In this document: piece after piece, positions 305 to 55,422 of the stretch
Numbering within the stretch: the stretch's first letter is position 1
Layout of the letters: the number at the start of each line of letters is the position of its first letter
Origin: Bombella dulcis
Lineage (GTDB): Bacteria > Pseudomonadota > Alphaproteobacteria > Acetobacterales > Acetobacteraceae
Length of the DNA: 64,000 nucleotides
Direction: 5' to 3'
Assembly (NCBI RefSeq): GCF_026385505.1
Contig: NZ_JANIDV010000004.1
Span: 124,001-188,000, forward strand
Position numbers and translations under genes: made by a program
Notes under the pieces: model-generated
Told to the model about the DNA's origin: nothing
What the model saw: the letters and a program-made list of their open reading frames with translations, nothing else
Databases searched by the model: none

Positions 305-703
305 TTAGAAGACGCGGCAGAGGACTTCGCCACCAACATTGGCAGCCCGGGCCTCGACGTCTGAAAGAACACCACGCGGCGTGGAGAGAATGGAAACACC
401 CAGACCAGCATAGACGCGCGGCAGTTCCTTGATTTTGGAGTACACACGGCGACCCGGACGGGACACGCGATGAATCTCGCGGATCACGGGCTGGCCATCA
501 GCATACTTCAGCTCGATGCGGAACTGGGAAATGCCCTTGCGGACTTCCTCGGTGGTGTAACCGCGGATATATCCTTCGCGCTTCAGTGCCTCAAGAACAC
601 TGGCACGCAGCTTGGACGCCGGAGCAACGCAGGCAGCATGGCGGGCACGCTGAGCGTTACGGACCCGGGTGAGCATATCACCCAAAGGATCAGACATAGA
701 CAT
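305..703 (-). CDS. rpsH: 30S ribosomal protein S8
   Basis: A 132-residue protein with the S8 opening MSMSDPLGDMLTRVRNAQ and the typical C-terminal region SILSTPRGVLSDVEARAANV. S8 binds the central domain of 16S rRNA and is the translational repressor of the spc operon in enterobacteria; whether it is so here is not shown. It lies between rpsN (13 nt upstream) and rplF. Confidence 0.97.
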   Translation of the reverse strand: MSMSDPLGDMLTRVRNAQRARHAACVAPASKLRASVLEALKREGYIRGYTTEEVRKGISQFRIELKYADGQPVIREIHRVSRPGRRVYSKIKELPRVYAGLGVSILSTPRGVLSDVEARAANVGGEVLCRVF

Positions 704-716
704 TCAGACTACCCTT

Positions 717-1022
717 TTACCAGCTGGACTTGACCATGCCGGGGATCTGCCCCGTGGAAGCAAGGTCACGCAGAGCAATACGGCACAGCTCAAACTTGCG
801 GTAGTTCCCACGGGGACGACCAGTCAGTTTACAACGCAGACGTACACGGGTCTGGGACCCATTGCGTGGCAGCTTGGCCAGTTTAAGTGTCGCTTCAAAA
901 CGCTCCTCCATGGAGAGAGAGCGGTTCTTGATAGTATTTTTGAGAGCGGTCCGCTTTTCAAGGTCACGCTGCGCCATGGCAGCACGACGATTATTACGGT
1001 TCACCGCAGAGACTTTCGCCAT
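717..1022 (-). CDS. rpsN: 30S ribosomal protein S14
   Basis: A 101-residue S14 of the long, zinc-free type: no CxxC pairs are present and the length is that of proteobacterial S14. The C-terminal part, with [15 protein letters not shown] and [11 protein letters not shown], is diagnostic. S14 assembles late into the 30S head. A 131-nt spacer separates it from rplE, unusually long for this operon, and contains a hairpin. Confidence 0.97.
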
Positions 1023-45124: not shown

Positions 45125-47737
45125 TCAGCCTGCAACCACGAAATTGACGATCCGGTTCGGCACATGGATCTCCTTGACGATCCGCTTGCCTTCCAGTGCC
45201 TTCGCAACATTCGGCTCGGCTCTGGCCTGTGCCAGCACGCTCTCTTTCGCCTCATCCGGCGCACAGGTGATCGTGCCACGCAGCTTGCCCAGCACCTGCA
45301 CGGCAATGGTCACCTTCTTGACAGCCAGCAGGCTCTCATCAGCTTCCGGCCAGCTCCGTTCCACCACCATCGGGCCTTCCGGCTCCAGAAGCAGCATCAG
45401 TTCCTCAGCCAGATGCGGCATCATGGGAGAGACCAGCATGGCCAGCACATAGGCCGCTTCACGGCGGGCGGCGGGCAGACCGTCACCCTCCCTGCCCTCA
45501 GCGTCACCCAGTGCAGAAGACAGCTCATGAAGACGGGCCACGGCCACATTCGGCGTGAAGCCTTCCAGAGCTTCCGTCACGGCAGCAATGGTACGGTGCG
45601 TCACCTGACGCAGCTCCTCCCCGGCTGCACCATGTGCCACATCCGCTCCATCCCTGGCCGCAACGGCCTGAACCTGCCGGTACAGACGCTGCATGAAACG
45701 TCCGGCCGCCGCCACACCGGCCGCCGTCCACTCCATGTCCCGTTCCGGCGGGCTGTCGGACAGCACGAACCAGCGGGCCGTATCAGCCCCGTAACGCTCG
45801 ATGATCTCCACCGGGGACACCGTGTTCCGCTTGGACTTGGACATCTTCTCGGAGCGTCCCACCGTGACGGGATTGCCATTATCCTTGCGGACAACCGCAT
45901 CCCCACGATGCTCGACCTCTTCGGGATAGAGCCACTGGTTCCCGTCACGATAGCTCTCATGCGTGACCATGCCCTGCGTGAAGAGACCCGCAAATGGCTC
46001 ACTCACATCCAGATGACCCGTCTTCTTCATCGCACGGGTGAAGAACCGGGCATAGAGCAGATGCAGGATGGCATGTTCAATCCCACCAATATACTGGTCC
46101 ACGGCCAGCCAGCCATCCGCAGCCTTGCGATCAGTCGGGGTTGCTGCCTTCGGAGCCGTAAAGCGGGCAAAATACCATGAGCTATCCACGAACGTATCGC
46201 AGGTATCCGTCTCACGCCGTGCCTCTGCGCCGCATTTCGGGCAGGAAACATGCTTCCATGTCGGATGATGATCCAGCGGGTTGCCCGGCGTGTCGAAACT
46301 GACATCCTCCGGCAGCGTCACCGGAAGCTGCTCCTCCAGCACGGGAACAGCCCCACAGGAATCGCAGTAGATGATGGGAATGGGGCAGCCCCAGTACCGC
46401 TGGCGGGAAATGCCCCAGTCACGCAGACGCCAGTTGGTCACGCCACGGCCAACTCCCAGCTCTTCCACCCGCTCAATGGCAGCCCGAATGGCCTCCTTCG
46501 TGGTCTTCCCGCTCAGGAAGCCGGAATTATAGAGTGTCGCCTCGCCCGTGACGGCCTTCTTTCCCACCGTGAAGCTGGCTTCCTCTTCCCCTGCGGGCAG
46601 CAGGACGGACGGAACCTCCAGGCCGTATTTACGGGCAAAGTCCAGATCACGCTGATCCCCACAGGGGCAGCCGAAGACGGCACCCGTGCCATATTCCGTC
46701 AGCACAAAATTGGCGATCCAGACCGGAGCCGTCTGCTCCGGATTCAGCGGATTCACCACACGCAGGCCGGTATCGAAGCCACGCTTCTCCATCGTACTCA
46801 GGGCTTCTTCAGACGTGCCGACACGCTGGCATTCCTCAACGAAGCCCTGCGCTTCCGGATTGCCCGCAGCGACCTTGCGGGCCAGCGGATGATCCGCCGC
46901 AATCCCGATGAAGCTCAGACCGAACAGCGTGTCCGGCCGGGTGGTGAAGACCTCGATGGAATCTTCATCCACATCATAACCCTGCGGCGGATTATGCAGG
47001 CTGAAACGGACTTTCGCCCCCTCGGACCGGCCGATCCAGCGTTCCTGCATGATGCGGACACGCTCCGGCCATTTGTCCAGGTCCTTCAGCCCGTCCAGAA
47101 GAGGCTCGGCAAAATCGGTGATCTTCAGGAACCACTGGGAGAGTGTCTTCTTCTCCACCAGTGCGCCGGACCGCCAGCCCCGCCCGTCCACAACCTGCTC
47201 ATTGGCCAGAACGGTCTGGTCCACAGGGTCCCAGTTGACGGATGAATCACGCCGCTCTACAAGCCCGGCAGCCAGCATGTCAAGGAACAGCTTCTGCTGC
47301 TGGCCATAATAGTCCGGCAGGCAGGTCGCAATCTCACGCTTCCAGTCCAGCGAGAAACCGAGCCGCTGAAGTGTCCCCCGCATGGTGGCGATGTTCTGGA
47401 GGGTCCACTTGCCCGGATGAACGCCCCGTTCCCGTGCGGCGTTTTCGGCGGGCAGGCCGAAAGCATCCCAGCCCATCGGGTGCATCACGGCATAGCCACG
47501 TGCCCGCTTGTACCGGGCAACCACATCACCCAGCGTGTAATTGCGTACATGCCCGACATGCAGCTGCCCCGACGGGTAAGGGAACATTTCCAGCACATAA
47601 TATTTCGGCCTGTCGGCAGGCGGAACATCCGGCACATGGAAAATGTCGGCCTCCGCCCACCGGGCCTGCCAGTGAGGCTCACGGGCATGGAAGTCGAAAC
47701 TGGAATCAGAAGCGTTGCTGGCTGTCATGTCACTCAT
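45125..47737 (-). CDS. leuS: Leucyl-tRNA synthetase
   Basis: An 870-residue class I synthetase. The HIGH-type motif is [12 protein letters not shown] (following MFPYPSGQL), the KMSKS motif is [10 protein letters not shown], and the CP1 editing domain keeps [10 protein letters not shown] zinc-type knuckle (CPKCGAE) and a C-terminal anticodon-binding domain ending [16 protein letters not shown] are present. Length matches bacterial LeuRS. It begins 9 nt after the DUF3576 gene. Confidence 0.97.
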
Positions 47738-47746
47738 CAGATTATC

Positions 47747-48286
47747 TTATTTTCCGCCGCCATTTTCGGCCCGCAGCTGACGGGCACGCTCCAGGATGCG
47801 GGATATGATGTCCGCTGCCGTATTGGAGGCGGCGGGCGTATCCTGCCATTCTCCACCATTGATACGGGTTTGGCGGAAAACGCTCAGCCGGATGGCATCC
47901 GACCGTAGACGACGATCCAAGATGTAAGCAGCGATCTTAAAACGCTCATCCTGCGAACCGGAAGGCTGATACCAGTCCGTCAGGATGACGCCACCCTGTG
48001 CATCGGCGGAGACCATCGGCATGAAGGAGAGCGTATCGATCGCCCCACGCCAGAGATAGGCATTCACGCCGCCACGGAGCTGGTCGTCGCCCCCCTGCGC
48101 CCCCCGGTCCACGCCCAGCAGGTGATTGCGGGGCAAGGCCAGCGAAGACGGATTGCGCTTGCCCCCACCACAGCCAGCCAGCCCCCCGACAGCCACCACT
48201 GCCATCAGCGACAGGACCATGGGGCGGCGCAGGCCACACCAGAGAACAGATAGACGGGGTACTGGATACGATGACGAAAAGAACAT
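47747..48286 (-). CDS. DUF3576 family lipoprotein
   Basis: A predicted lipoprotein of about 179 residues from the ATG at 48286 (MFFSSSYPVPRL), which has a GCAGG site; the frame runs 25 codons further, and an ATG at 48220 (MVLSLMAVVAVGG) would give a shorter signal. The lipobox GGLAGCGGG is clear. The body, with VNAYLWRGAIDTLSFMPMVS and SQDERFKIAAYILDRRLRSD, matches the DUF3576 family, which is typically next to leuS in alphaproteobacteria. Its function is unknown. Confidence 0.85.
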   Translation of the reverse strand: MFFSSSYPVPRLSVLWCGLRRPMVLSLMAVVAVGGLAGCGGGKRNPSSLALPRNHLLGVDRGAQGGDDQLRGGVNAYLWRGAIDTLSFMPMVSADAQGGVILTDWYQPSGSQDERFKIAAYILDRRLRSDAIRLSVFRQTRINGGEWQDTPAASNTAADIISRILERARQLRAENGGGK

Positions 48287-48439
48287 GGGCAAACCTGCGG
48301 AAGGCCGTGCCAGGGCCGGTCTTGAACAAGGCTTCCAGCATGGCAGGCGTGGAAGCATCAACTGTCAGAACAGATCAGAACTGTCCCCTTCATATCCTGC
48401 CCGCCCGCACAGGCCAAGGGGCATGGTGGGAGAGCAGGC

Positions 48440-48468
48440 TTGCGGAACTGTAAAAAAAACGCTAGGCC
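48440..48468 (+). promoter_or_regulatory. Predicted promoter of tRNA-Arg(CCU)
   Basis: TTGCGG and TAGGCC are 17 nt apart and lie 11 nt upstream of the tRNA 5' end, the normal distance for a stable-RNA promoter. The form matches that upstream of rplK and rpsL. Confidence 0.6.
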
Positions 48469-48478
48469 GTCTCTGCGT

Positions 48479-48796
48479 GTCCGCGTAGCTCAGCAGGATA
48501 GAGCACAGGATTCCTAAATAATTGGGCACCGGGATGGCAAACCGCCCGGTGAATTCGCTCAAAGTCGGGGAACGCTAACGCCGTTTCAGGCCATGCCAAT
48601 CCCGAGCCAAGCCAGCCTAGGTCAACAGGCTGGAAGGTGTAGAGACTGTACGGGTGACACCGTGGCAGGGCAGCCGCCCTGTGGTGAAGAGACAGTCCAG
48701 ACCACGAACGAGGCCTTACCATCGGGAGGTCCGGCGGCGAAAGCTGAAGTGGTATGAATCCTGGGGTCGAGGGTTCGAATCCCTCCGCGGACACCA
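48479..48796 (+). tRNA. tRNA-Arg(CCU), split by a group I intron
   Basis: The exons 48479-48515 and 48757-48796 join to a full cloverleaf: acceptor GTCCGCG/CGCGGAC, D stem GCTC/GAGC, anticodon stem CAGGA/TCCTG with loop TTCCTAA (anticodon CCT), T arm GAGGG-TTCGAAT-CCCTC, discriminator A and an encoded CCA. The split lies directly after the third anticodon base. This tRNA reads AGG codons and is often single copy, so splicing is probably essential. The 3' half borders a degraded island. Confidence 0.95.
48516..48756 (+). ncRNA. Self-splicing group I intron in tRNA-Arg(CCU)
   Basis: A 241-nt intron. P1 pairs CCTAA with TTGGG, giving the U.G wobble at the 5' splice site (T48515 with G48524). 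P2 is CACCGGG/CCCGGTG (48527-48551). The Q element AATCCCGAGCCAAGCC (48598-48613), R element around GTAGAGACTGTACGG (48639-48653) and S element GAAGAGACAGTCC (48686-48698) are clear; P7 is GACTGT/ACAGTC. The last base is G48756, the expected terminal G. There is no ORF. The features fit subgroup IC3, as in tRNA introns of Agrobacterium and cyanobacteria. Confidence 0.93.
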
Positions 48797-48948
48797 ATAT
48801 TACCCACAACAAGCGACAATAAGTATCAAAACACCTCAGAAAACCGCCATTTCTGGCGTAATTTCATGTCACCTAGTAACATTAACGCACAATAGCAGCT
48901 ATCACCCATCAAGGTAGATTTCTGGGCAGGTTTTGGGAGGCTAGGTAG

Positions 48949-51780: not shown

Positions 51781-54700
51781 ATGCCCGCTTACAACTACAA
51801 CTCCACCACATACACCTATAACTCTTCATATGATGGCCTGAAGGCAGTAGCTCTCAATCAAGTTCCGAGCAATTGGGTTACGGTGCTGTCCGGTAACACC
51901 GTTAGTTCTGGTACGGCTGTCCCTCTCAGTAATTATTATGTCAGTGGCACCTCGATCAACATAGACTCCTCTGGCGGCACCAGTACGAGCAATTCTTTTG
52001 CCTACGGTTTCGGAACCGGCAATAACGTTACCAATGCTATCACAATAAACGGTGGGCATGTAGCGGTCGCTAGCGGCGCAACCATGTTCGGTGGAACTGC
52101 TCTAAATAAAGGATCCATTGAGGCTGTTGGTGGAGGTGTCATTTCTGGTGGGGTTGTTGGCTCCTCTGGGGCTGTCTTCGCTGGAGCTCTTACAAGCGGG
52201 GGACAGGTTTCCGGTTACGGTACGGTTATCAACCCTAATGTTGCCTCCAAGGGTTACGCTATCGTAGGGGGTGGTGCTGGAGACTTTGTCGTTAAAGGGT
52301 TTTCCGTTGATGGTCAGGGCGGCGTCATGTCAGGTGGCACGTTTAACCCAGGAAGTGTTTACGGTATCGGTAATGCTGGTGTAGGAACTGGCGGGACTAT
52401 ATTCGGCAGTCAGGCTATTTTTGCAACCGGAACCTCCATAAACCAACTTTTCGTTGGAAGTGACGCTGTACAAACCCTTTATAGTAGTGGTGTCGCTTCG
52501 CAATCTACTGTCCTTGGCGGGACCGTCTTAAATTCGGGCGGGACGACATCTGGTGCAACTATACTGAGTGGTGGTTCCCTTAACGTTACAGGAGGGACAT
52601 ACACAAGTTGGCTGCATCCGCAGTTTAAAGTTCAATATGGCGGTTACGGGACTGGAACGTCTAGCAATGACTATATCGGTTCCGGAGCGACAGAATTAGT
52701 GGGTCAAGATGGTATTACCTCTAACTCTGTTCTAACTTCTGGTGCAGTTGGGATTGTTACCCAGGGTGGAACAAGCCTCTTTCCGGTTATAAGTGGTGGA
52801 ACGGAAACGGTCAGTGCAGGGGGTCTCCTCAGCAGCGGCAGTGTAAGCGGTCAAGGCAGCGTCTTCGTTTCTTCTGCCGGTGCCGCCTCCAGTTTAAATG
52901 TTTCTTCCACTGGGTTTGCTCAAGTTCTATCTGGCGGAACTGGATATGCTTTCGTAGCCAACAGCGGTGGTACCGTCGTGGTGGACAGCGGAGGCTCTCT
53001 CGGTCGTTCTCTTCTGAACAGTGGTGGCACCCTCACCGTTCCTTCCGGAGCTGTTATATATAGTGGGGCTACCCTTAATTACGCAAACACGTCTTTTGCT
53101 CTCTCTTCCGGTGCTACTGCAGATTATCTTGTTGCGAGCAATGGGACAGTACTCGCCGTCCCTGGTGCAACGATCGGGAGCATTTATACAGTTAATAGCG
53201 GTGTAGGGTCCGTTGCTTCCGGTATTTCCGTTAACACTCTCTTAGCTGGATTTGATCCTAATAATCCCCTGGCCAATGGTGATGGTACTGTTATTCTCGA
53301 TAGTGGGGGAACTGCGGCCACCTTTGGAGCACAAGGGGGGGCTACCGCCCTCGCCAACAGTGGAACGATTACGAGTGGAGTTAGTATTAGTGGCGGGACC
53401 GGTACTCTTCTAAAAGGAGTTTATGTAGCTAGCGGTGCTACGATGCAAGTATCGGGTGGCACTACCAACGGTTCCCCCTACGATGGTTATCTTTATGTTG
53501 ATACGCCGAACCAGTTTAAAGAACTTGATATTGGAAGTGGTGCGTCGGCATTTGTTGATTCCGGAGCGTCAGTTGGCAGCGTTAATATAACAAATAACGG
53601 TATGGGCACAGTTGGCTCTGGGGTATTTGCTAGTTCACTCAGTGTTACTGGAGCAAATGCATCGGCCTTCCTTTCAAGCGGTGCCACAGTCCCAAATGTA
53701 GTCCTAGCAAGTGGTGCAACAGTTGAAATTCCTAGAGGTGGAGCGGGCGTCAGCGTTCTTTCGGCAATCTCCGGAGCCACAGGTATCATCGACTCTGGTG
53801 CTCGTCTTAATAGCGTCTCTCTTTCTTCCGCTAATGCCACTATCGCATCCGGTGTTTTCGTCAGCAAACTAACTGTGCTAAGTGGCGCATCAGGTGTCTT
53901 GATGCCTGGTGCATCTGTCCAACATATTGAAGTCGCCAATGGCGGTTGGATTAGCGGTGCGACTGTTGCCAACAATGGAGAACTAGTTGTTTCGTCCGGC
54001 GGGACCGCCATACAAAGTTTGATTAAATATGACAGTGGCATGTGGGCTACAAACCCCTACACTATGGTTCAATCTGGAGGGACTGTCGCAAATGCTACCG
54101 TCGCAGGTGCTGGAAGTGTGGGCGAAGGAGCTTCTAATCTAGGGGGACTGCTAACAGTTGAATCGGGTGCTGTCCTGATTAATACATCCATGGGTTATAA
54201 TGCCCGCATTAAAGTAAATGGGTTGTCCTACGACAGCGGTGGCTCAGTTACTGTCAGCAATAATATCTTAACTGTTTCTGAAAATGGACAAAATTGGCAG
54301 ATGAGTATCTCTGGCAATTATGATCCAAGCGGTTTTATTCTCAATAATGATGGGGCTGGTAACACCGTTCTCATCTATCAGAAGTGTTTCCTCGCTGGTA
54401 GCATGATCCGTACTCCTAAAGGAGAGAAGGCTGTGGAACGGCTCCGCAAAGGAGAGACGGTATGTGTCTATGTGGATGGGAAGGAAGAGACAAGGGAGAT
54501 TACGAGCGTTATCCAACGCCGGGCTCGCGTTAACAGCTCACAGCCAGAAGATATTGCTGGTTGGTCTATCATTATTGCAAAGGATGCCTTTGCCCAAGGT
54601 GTTCCTAATAAAGATCTCTCTGTTACACCTGAGCACTGTTTTTATTTTGAAGGCCGTTTCGTTCCTGTGCGTATGCTCGTAAATGGCGAGTCTATCCGGT

Positions 54701-55422
54701 ACGATCACAGTCAAGTCGAATATGATTATTACCACATTAAAACCGAGCCGCATTCCGTTCTGTGGGCCAACAATACGTTAACCGAAAGCTGGTTGGATAC
54801 AGAGGTGCAGGACATCTATAAACAGGATTCCTCCGCAGAAGGAATCATGCGTTTAATTACGCAGCAGAAACTTAACTGGGATGAACATGCGGCAGCTCCG
54901 CTTGATACCTCACAAGCTTTCGTAGAGCCACTACATTCCAGGTTTTCTAGCCGTGCTAAGAAACTCACTCCTGTTAAACAGTCCTTCTCCAACGAGTCCC
55001 TATCAAGTGACATGAGTGCGGATCCTGCTCCTTACATTAGACTTGATGATGGCCGAACCATTCAGCCTCAGCGTCACGAGGCCGGTCGTTATCTTTTCTC
55101 CCTACCTGCTCATGCTCGCAAAGCTATTCTTGGTTCTCGAACATTCCGTCCTTCTGAGACTGTAGGCCCCCACTTGGACGATCGACGTGAACTTGGTATG
55201 CTGATCGGCCAAGTCTCTCTTTGGACTGGTGAAAAGGAACATATCGTTACTCGCCACTTAACTGAGAAAAACCTCAAGGGTTGGGATGTAATCGAGGCTG
55301 GTCCTCATCGCTGGACTAAAGGTGAAGCAGAACTTCTTCTGCATGATGTTCCTGCCTCTGACATAGGTCAGCACATGCTAAGTATCGAAGTCCAAGCAGG
55401 GGGGCCATACAAGGCAGCCTAA
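51781..55422 (+). CDS. AIDA-repeat protein with C-terminal Hint domain
   Basis: A 1213-residue protein. Residues about 20-860 are degenerate strand-loop-strand repeats rich in SGG, GGT and SSGA, as in AIDA-type passenger domains, predicted to form a beta-solenoid. At residue 869 a Hint domain begins with Cys (CFLAGSMIRTPKGEKAVERL), with block VTPEHCFYFEGRFVPVRML and EPHSVLWANNTLTESWLD. A further domain of about 200 residues ends in HRWTKGEAELLLHDV. No signal peptide or autotransporter barrel is visible. A GAGG site precedes the ATG. Hint chemistry suggests self-cleavage at Cys869; surface adhesion is inference. Confidence 0.88.
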   Translation: MPAYNYNSTTYTYNSSYDGLKAVALNQVPSNWVTVLSGNTVSSGTAVPLSNYYVSGTSINIDSSGGTSTSNSFAYGFGTGNNVTNAITINGGHVAVASGATMFGGTALNKGSIEAVGGGVISGGVVGSSGAVFAGALTSGGQVSGYGTVINPNVASKGYAIVGGGAGDFVVKGFSVDGQGGVMSGGTFNPGSVYGIGNAGVGTGGTIFGSQAIFATGTSINQLFVGSDAVQTLYSSGVASQSTVLGGTVLNSGGTTSGATILSGGSLNVTGGTYTSWLHPQFKVQYGGYGTGTSSNDYIGSGATELVGQDGITSNSVLTSGAVGIVTQGGTSLFPVISGGTETVSAGGLLSSGSVSGQGSVFVSSAGAASSLNVSSTGFAQVLSGGTGYAFVANSGGTVVVDSGGSLGRSLLNSGGTLTVPSGAVIYSGATLNYANTSFALSSGATADYLVASNGTVLAVPGATIGSIYTVNSGVGSVASGISVNTLLAGFDPNNPLANGDGTVILDSGGTAATFGAQGGATALANSGTITSGVSISGGTGTLLKGVYVASGATMQVSGGTTNGSPYDGYLYVDTPNQFKELDIGSGASAFVDSGASVGSVNITNNGMGTVGSGVFASSLSVTGANASAFLSSGATVPNVVLASGATVEIPRGGAGVSVLSAISGATGIIDSGARLNSVSLSSANATIASGVFVSKLTVLSGASGVLMPGASVQHIEVANGGWISGATVANNGELVVSSGGTAIQSLIKYDSGMWATNPYTMVQSGGTVANATVAGAGSVGEGASNLGGLLTVESGAVLINTSMGYNARIKVNGLSYDSGGSVTVSNNILTVSENGQNWQMSISGNYDPSGFILNNDGAGNTVLIYQKCFLAGSMIRTPKGEKAVERLRKGETVCVYVDGKEETREITSVIQRRARVNSSQPEDIAGWSIIIAKDAFAQGVPNKDLSVTPEHCFYFEGRFVPVRMLVNGESIRYDHSQVEYDYYHIKTEPHSVLWANNTLTESWLDTEVQDIYKQDSSAEGIMRLITQQKLNWDEHAAAPLDTSQAFVEPLHSRFSSRAKKLTPVKQSFSNESLSSDMSADPAPYIRLDDGRTIQPQRHEAGRYLFSLPAHARKAILGSRTFRPSETVGPHLDDRRELGMLIGQVSLWTGEKEHIVTRHLTEKNLKGWDVIEAGPHRWTKGEAELLLHDVPASDIGQHMLSIEVQAGGPYKAA

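Follow-up and report, generated by a model that had tools for sequence, protein, structure and literature searches.

How a tRNA gene whose anticodon loop is interrupted by a long insert can supply its tRNA, and how such an insert came to occupy that site, are the questions raised by a locus of Bombella dulcis, a member of the Acetobacteraceae. Within the 64,000-nucleotide stretch of DNA that was analysed (the window), a gene for tRNA-Arg(CCU) is interrupted after U36, the third anticodon base, and its two exons span positions 48479-48796. Reinhold-Hurek and Shub reportedly described a group I intron in the tRNA-Arg(CCU) gene of Agrobacterium tumefaciens in 1992, and we take placement between bases 36 and 37 of tRNA-Arg(CCU) to be the site of that Agrobacterium-type intron. 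Introns of subgroup IC3 are characterized by small size, the absence of P5abc, and GNRA loops in L2 and L9.

Small group I introns in tRNA anticodon loops, some of them classed as IC3, are treated in the accessible parts of PMC3984707, PMC8450103 and PMC4033280. The last of these cites alphaproteobacterial tRNA introns to 1992, and tRNA-Arg(CCU) introns are named in the text available from PMC5733544. A table footnote in PMC4596401 records that an Arg tRNA of Asaia bogorensis is split by a group I intron homologue; this host belongs to the same bacterial family as ours, and in the footnote the likeness is drawn without anticodon or sequence. As far as these excerpts go, group I introns of tRNA-Arg(CCU) are already in print, and the window intron adds another example. 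The same cyanobacterial paper, PMC5733544, claims in the part available that tRNA-Arg, -Gly and -Lys contain group I introns measuring 22-49 nt; these are too short for group I and were left uncounted.

In this study, the structure of the gene, the core fold of its insert and the covariation behind it, the conservation of the site, and the relatives of the intron are established by computation. The window gene proves to be ordinary for its kind, and the spread of its relatives over other tRNA genes is the more interesting part.

Results

Structure of the interrupted gene

The 5' exon (48479-48515, plus strand, 37 nt) ends at U36 in the intron mode of ARAGORN, the same exon end being found in 40 Arg(CCU) loci. 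It is followed by an insert of 241 nt (48516-48756, plus strand) with a terminal G at 48756, and by a 3' exon (48757-48796, plus strand, 40 nt) that begins with A37 and includes an encoded CCA. When the terminal G is left in the intron, the joined exons form a 77-nt tRNA-Arg(CCU). A default ARAGORN run on the window returned 0 tRNAs, and a covariance search for tRNAs across the entire 1.87-Mb assembly listed 46, from which the split gene is absent. With its intron option, ARAGORN called tRNA-Arg(cct) at 48479-48796 with a 241-nt intron, and this was the sole call in the window at an intron range of 150-300 nt. Two further calls at wide intron settings (introns of 776 and 808 nt) are implausible as tRNAs. 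The split gene, its boundaries and its insert, as drawn by the initial annotation from the letters alone, are thus borne out by ARAGORN and by our reading of the junctions, and its warning that automated tRNA callers can miss such genes applies to both searches.

The insert had also been described as free of ORFs, and no frame of at least 80 aa, the length from which frames were listed, lies wholly within it. One sense frame of 87 aa (48654-48917) overlaps it partly, beginning in the intron, crossing exon 2 and leaving the gene. An antisense frame of 116 aa (minus strand, 48462-48812) spans the entire split gene, where a false protein annotation is possible. We take both frames to be spurious.

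The group I core and its covariation

The Rfam group I model RF00028 matched the insert at 27.7 bits (E 3.8e-5, 501 bases searched), which is its only match in the genome at E 0.001. The covariance model proposed as a check on the group I assignment yields a real match, but one below the curated gathering score of 50, so that a default Rfam scan reports nothing and an automatic pipeline would read 'no hit'. Since the gene escapes tRNA and Rfam scans alike at their default settings, such genomes look as if they were without tRNA-Arg(CCU).

The fold was examined in an alignment of 43 introns, from 24 Arg(CCU), 11 Leu(UAA) and 5 Thr(GGU) genes and one gene each of Arg(UCU), Lys(UUU) and Leu(CAA). 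The RNAalifold consensus contained 53 pairs, 36 of them with changes on both sides, and in it a hairpin clashing with P7 was exchanged for P7 itself, written as a pseudoknot. In the amended structure 95.9% of cells pair and 38 of the 53 pairs change on both sides, compared with 80.7% pairing and 25.4 such pairs in shuffled controls; sliding the partners lowered pairing to 29.8-44.3%, and the covariation score was 0.438 as against 0.158 when shuffled and at most 0.087 when slid, figures that test the shared core and not P1 or P10, as the alignment mixes sites.

The core consists of P3, P4, P6, P7 and P8 with the P3/P7 pseudoknot, and the corresponding helices (2, 3, 6, 7 and 8) are 95.7-100% paired. 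On the plus strand of the window, the 5' strand of P3 (48555-48560) pairs with 48652-48657 (helix 2, 99.6% paired, 5 of 6 pairs changing on both sides) and that of P4 (48565-48570) with 48600-48605 (helix 3, 100% paired, 5 of 6 pairs never varying). The 5' strand of P7, the guanosine-site helix (48644-48648), pairs with 48693-48697 in the pseudoknot with P3 and occurs in four matching versions: GACUG/CAGUC in 32 rows, GACUA/UAGUC in 8, and GACCA/UGGUC and GACUU/AAGUC in 1 each, one row being masked. P8 (48658-48686) comprises helices 8 (100% paired) and 9 (82.5%), and a hairpin of the P9 region with a GAAA loop (48735-48746, helix 12) is 100% paired. The terminal G is invariant in the 43 rows, whose junctions had been chosen expecting a terminal G.

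The P2 hairpin (48527-48551, plus strand, helix 1) is 85.3% paired. Its loop (48538-48541) reads CAAA in 8 of 8 loci of the genus and GAAA in 39 of the 43 aligned introns; the CAAA loop, which is not of the GNRA type, may alter or weaken a tertiary contact in the genus. For the features of IC3, the intron shows no large P5 extension, a GAAA loop in L9 and CAAA in L2.

Outside the counted structure, a putative internal guide GGG (48524-48526, plus strand) can be read from the sequence, which would form P1 through U36.G, C35-G and C34-G, G48524 being the base that can pair with U36 at the 5' splice site. The preceding UU (48522-48523, plus strand) could pair with A37 A38 of exon 2 as a putative P10. 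The guide region GGGC is conserved in most Arg(CCU) rows of the alignment. Insertion after the third anticodon base, the U.G at the 5' splice site, the terminal G, P7 and the Agrobacterium-type placement, all named in the initial annotation, hold.

Conservation at the same site

The 318-base gene is matched from end to end in each of the 8 genomes of the genus, the other seven at 82-91% identity in the DNA search, and the closest genome outside the genus in that search is G158. Counted from the rows of the DNA search, 115 of 299 Acetobacteraceae genomes carry an intron-bearing Arg(CCU) gene, a count in which the match in G048 is partial and that in G093 is interrupted by a run of N. An intronless junction with at most one mismatch occurs in 77 of the 299; the two sets have an overlap of 0, and 107 genomes fall in neither. 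All of the 40 Arg(CCU) loci read at their junctions, the window's own included, rebuild tRNA-Arg(cct). In the tree described below, the window intron lies within a set of 14 rows (SH-aLRT 99), all of them Arg(CCU) introns from Acetobacteraceae; this is consistent with descent alongside the hosts, and vertical inheritance within the genus is the best explanation of its presence. In one genome, a truncated second copy comprising the 3' part of the intron and exon 2 (L108/L132; G169 C1, 1816911-1817058) occurs with the full gene elsewhere.

The closest known counterpart is the Agrobacterium intron. The record of A. tumefaciens MEJ076 (L264) has the same tRNA, the same 36/37 junction and the same core, and 172 of 215 aligned positions (80%) are identical to the window intron; it differs in length (223 nt, against 241 nt here), in the P2 loop, which is CAAA in the window, and in the order of its host. 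Both introns fall in a set of 57 rows with 56 Arg(CCU) introns, on a branch counted as open (support 86); Arg(CCU) introns overall are not one clade and need 6 changes on the tree.

Decoding of AGG

Fetched and typed, the 46 tRNAs of the covariance search include Arg genes for UCU, ACG (two) and CCG. The check for another tRNA-Arg(CCU) found none among these 46, a list that is also without tRNA-Ile(GAU) and tRNA-Ala(UGC); the assembly or the search consequently has gaps, in which a second CCU gene may lie. The assembly has an intact tRNA-Arg(UCU), whose U34 can read AGG by ordinary wobble, so that AGG could be decoded even without the split gene. The earlier proposal that, were this the only CCU tRNA, AGG decoding would depend on RNA self-splicing was too strong.

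Relatives in other tRNA genes

Among the matches of the DNA search were also introns whose exons are not those of Arg(CCU). ARAGORN recognised the joined tRNAs as Leu(UAA) interrupted after 34, Thr(GGU) after 36, Arg(UCU) after 34, Lys(UUU) after 35 and Leu(CAA) after C34; His(AUG) calls by ARAGORN and by early splice callers were misplaced junctions of Arg(CCU) or Thr(GGU). A profile of the 43 introns found matches in 140 of the 299 genomes of the family, 49 of the 385 of the class (among them five family members) and 41 of the 398 of the phylum, this last set overlapping those of family and class. Further loci in the family comprise one each in Leu(UAG), Leu(CAG) and Leu(CAA) after 33 and one weak Asn(GUU) (52.9 bits), and introns of other Alphaproteobacteria lie in Lys(CUU), Lys(UUU) and Thr(GGU). 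Two introns in two tRNAs occur together in several genomes of the family, Arg(CCU) being combined, for example, with Leu(UAA) (G020), Thr(GGU) (G059) or Lys(UUU) (G079). In classes and phyla other than these, a pattern scan of named genomes, which matched at least 114 stretches, added loci in tRNA(CAU), Phe(GAA), Asn(GUU) and Thr(UGU). A spread over such other tRNA genes was not found described in the accessible portions of the open-licence literature, where the sites named are Leu(UAA), fMet, Ile(CAU) and Arg.

Junctions were called at 282 loci (L052-L333); 35 gave no call, including the intronless L109-L111, a few cases at contig edges and possible chance matches of the pattern, and 12 were repeats, leaving 235 distinct introns. 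Acetobacteraceae contribute 89 of these, namely Arg(CCU) 49, Leu(UAA) 23, Thr(GGU) 6, Arg(UCU) 4, Leu(CAA) 3, and Lys(UUU), Asn(GUU), Leu(UAG) and Leu(CAG) 1 each, site counts that mirror which loci were fetched, not frequencies, and that lean on known junction templates, to which the caller gives a bonus. At three loci (L106, L164 and L165), in tRNA-Leu(CAA) and Leu(CAG), the base at the 5' splice site is C34, not U. A Leu(UAA) relative (L196, genome G534, 491-955, minus strand) carries an antisense ORF of 154 aa with a weak match to an HNH endonuclease (PF13392, E 0.0005, 20 bits against a cut-off of 24.8).

Match of guides to exons

The guide differs by site, reading in the alignment GGGC at Arg(CCU), GAGU at Leu(UAA) and GCC at Thr(GGU); in the P1 scan described next it reads GGAG at the Lys sites. 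Nine doubtful rows were removed from the 235 introns before the guide tests and the tree, leaving 226. A loose scan for P1 in the first 34 intron bases ranked the own exon first, alone or jointly, in 32 of 226 introns; the figure for a control region was 16 of 226, and the scan did not separate own from foreign exons. A restricted design, picked after this failure, confined the guide to the bases ahead of the P2 loop: across 226 introns and 18 sites the mean match to the own exon was 7.36, against 4.94 (sd 0.45) when permuted (z 5.4; 0 of 5000 permutations as high), where some sites have identical exon ends and introns within one site are related. For control regions displaced by 40 and 80 bases, z was 0.7 and 0.9. 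Taken together, the guides fit the exons of their own sites better than they fit permuted exons. The own exon ranks first at 6 of 18 sites and fourth of 18 for Arg(CCU), with poor ranks for Asn(GUU) 36/37 (11th), Arg(UCU) and Leu(CAA) 33/34 (both 8th) and Thr(UGU) 33/34 (7th).

Distribution of sites on the tree

A quick tree was built from 184 cores without the guide region, the 226 introns having been reduced by 32 without the core motif, 5 longer than 330 nt and 5 near copies; 95 of its 181 inner branches are open, and long-branch warnings apply. The sites require 28 changes on this tree, against a minimum possible of 10 and a shuffled mean of 86.7, which indicates sites that are mostly inherited, with repeated shifts, counted regardless of direction, most forks being weak.

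Discussion

The locus is almost certainly a functional tRNA-Arg(CCU) gene that contains a group I ribozyme, small, IC3-like and free of ORFs, of the type found in the tRNA-Arg(CCU) gene of Agrobacterium. If expressed, the precursor would fold so that the guide GGG grips exon 1 through U36.G, C35-G and C34-G; exogenous guanosine bound in P7 would then attack after U36, and the released exon 1 would attack after the terminal G and join A37. The product would be an ordinary 77-nt tRNA reading AGG. The steps beyond guide pairing are those of the textbook group I pathway.

Counting against a functional gene are the predicted P1, which has only three contiguous pairs, the rank of the own exon for Arg(CCU) introns, fourth of 18, the Rfam score below gathering and the CAAA loop of P2. 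A disrupted pseudogene holding a dead insert, with AGG read by tRNA-Arg(UCU), would be in keeping with the intact tRNA-Arg(UCU) of the assembly, with the infrequency of AGG (0 to 4 per gene in four window genes counted) and with the CAAA loop of P2; yet the gene is full length in 8 of 8 genus genomes, its exons rebuild the tRNA in each, and the core covaries across related introns, so that we regard a dead insert as highly improbable. Excision that succeeds in the cell only with an essential protein helper, and not by the ribozyme alone, appears unlikely, though less so: the P2 loop is altered in the genus and host proteins can assist group I introns in vivo (PMC3984707, in the part available), against which stand a complete group I core, a covarying P7 and the terminal G. 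A self-splicing intron in a working gene is the reading that we adopt.

Two accounts of the wider family of introns have to be weighed. The lineage may, as we tentatively propose at somewhat below even odds, have moved repeatedly from one tRNA gene to another, in Acetobacteraceae and in other Alphaproteobacteria, by reverse splicing at the RNA level, exploiting the shared frame of U33 and A37-A38 and rewriting its guide to the new anticodon. Its sites in the family would then include Arg(CCU), Arg(UCU), Leu(UAA), Leu(CAA), Leu(UAG/CAG), Thr(GGU), Lys(UUU) and perhaps Asn(GUU). There is close to an even chance that the introns of the other tRNAs instead represent distinct lineages of old standing, which descent and horizontal transfer have spread together with their tRNA genes, with no movement between genes. 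The strong clustering of sites (28 changes against a shuffled mean of 86.7) favours such lineages, as do Leu(UAA) introns in at least five named phyla. They are harder to reconcile with 28 changes where 10 would be the least possible, and with two groupings on the tree. The 4 Arg(UCU) introns, all from one genus (g76), form one branch (97) among Leu(UAA) introns, most of the surrounding forks being weak, and the family introns of Leu(CAA) 34/35, Leu(UAG) and Leu(CAG) fall in one set of 8 rows (99), the other four rows of which are Arg(CCU) introns of Bartonella and others and to which a long-branch warning applies. Among other small anticodon-loop introns, the same core pattern also picks up tRNA(CAU) and cyanobacterial Leu(UAA) loci; these introns differ in tRNA and partly in position, and their kinship to the window lineage is poorly resolved in the tree.

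The surroundings of the gene are conserved on one side. The seven other genus genomes are collinear with the stretch 46979-48797, which includes leuS, a DUF3576 gene and the tRNA, at 79-90% identity; in all seven, BLASTN similarity ends at the 3' end of the tRNA, so that this end looks like an island or integration boundary. An integrated element with a duplicated tRNA end was considered for the window and set aside, no second att-like copy of the tRNA 3' end being present there at up to 3 mismatches. Downstream of the tRNA, at 51781-55422 on the plus strand, lies a gene for a repetitive protein of 1213 aa with a C-terminal Hint domain (PF13403).
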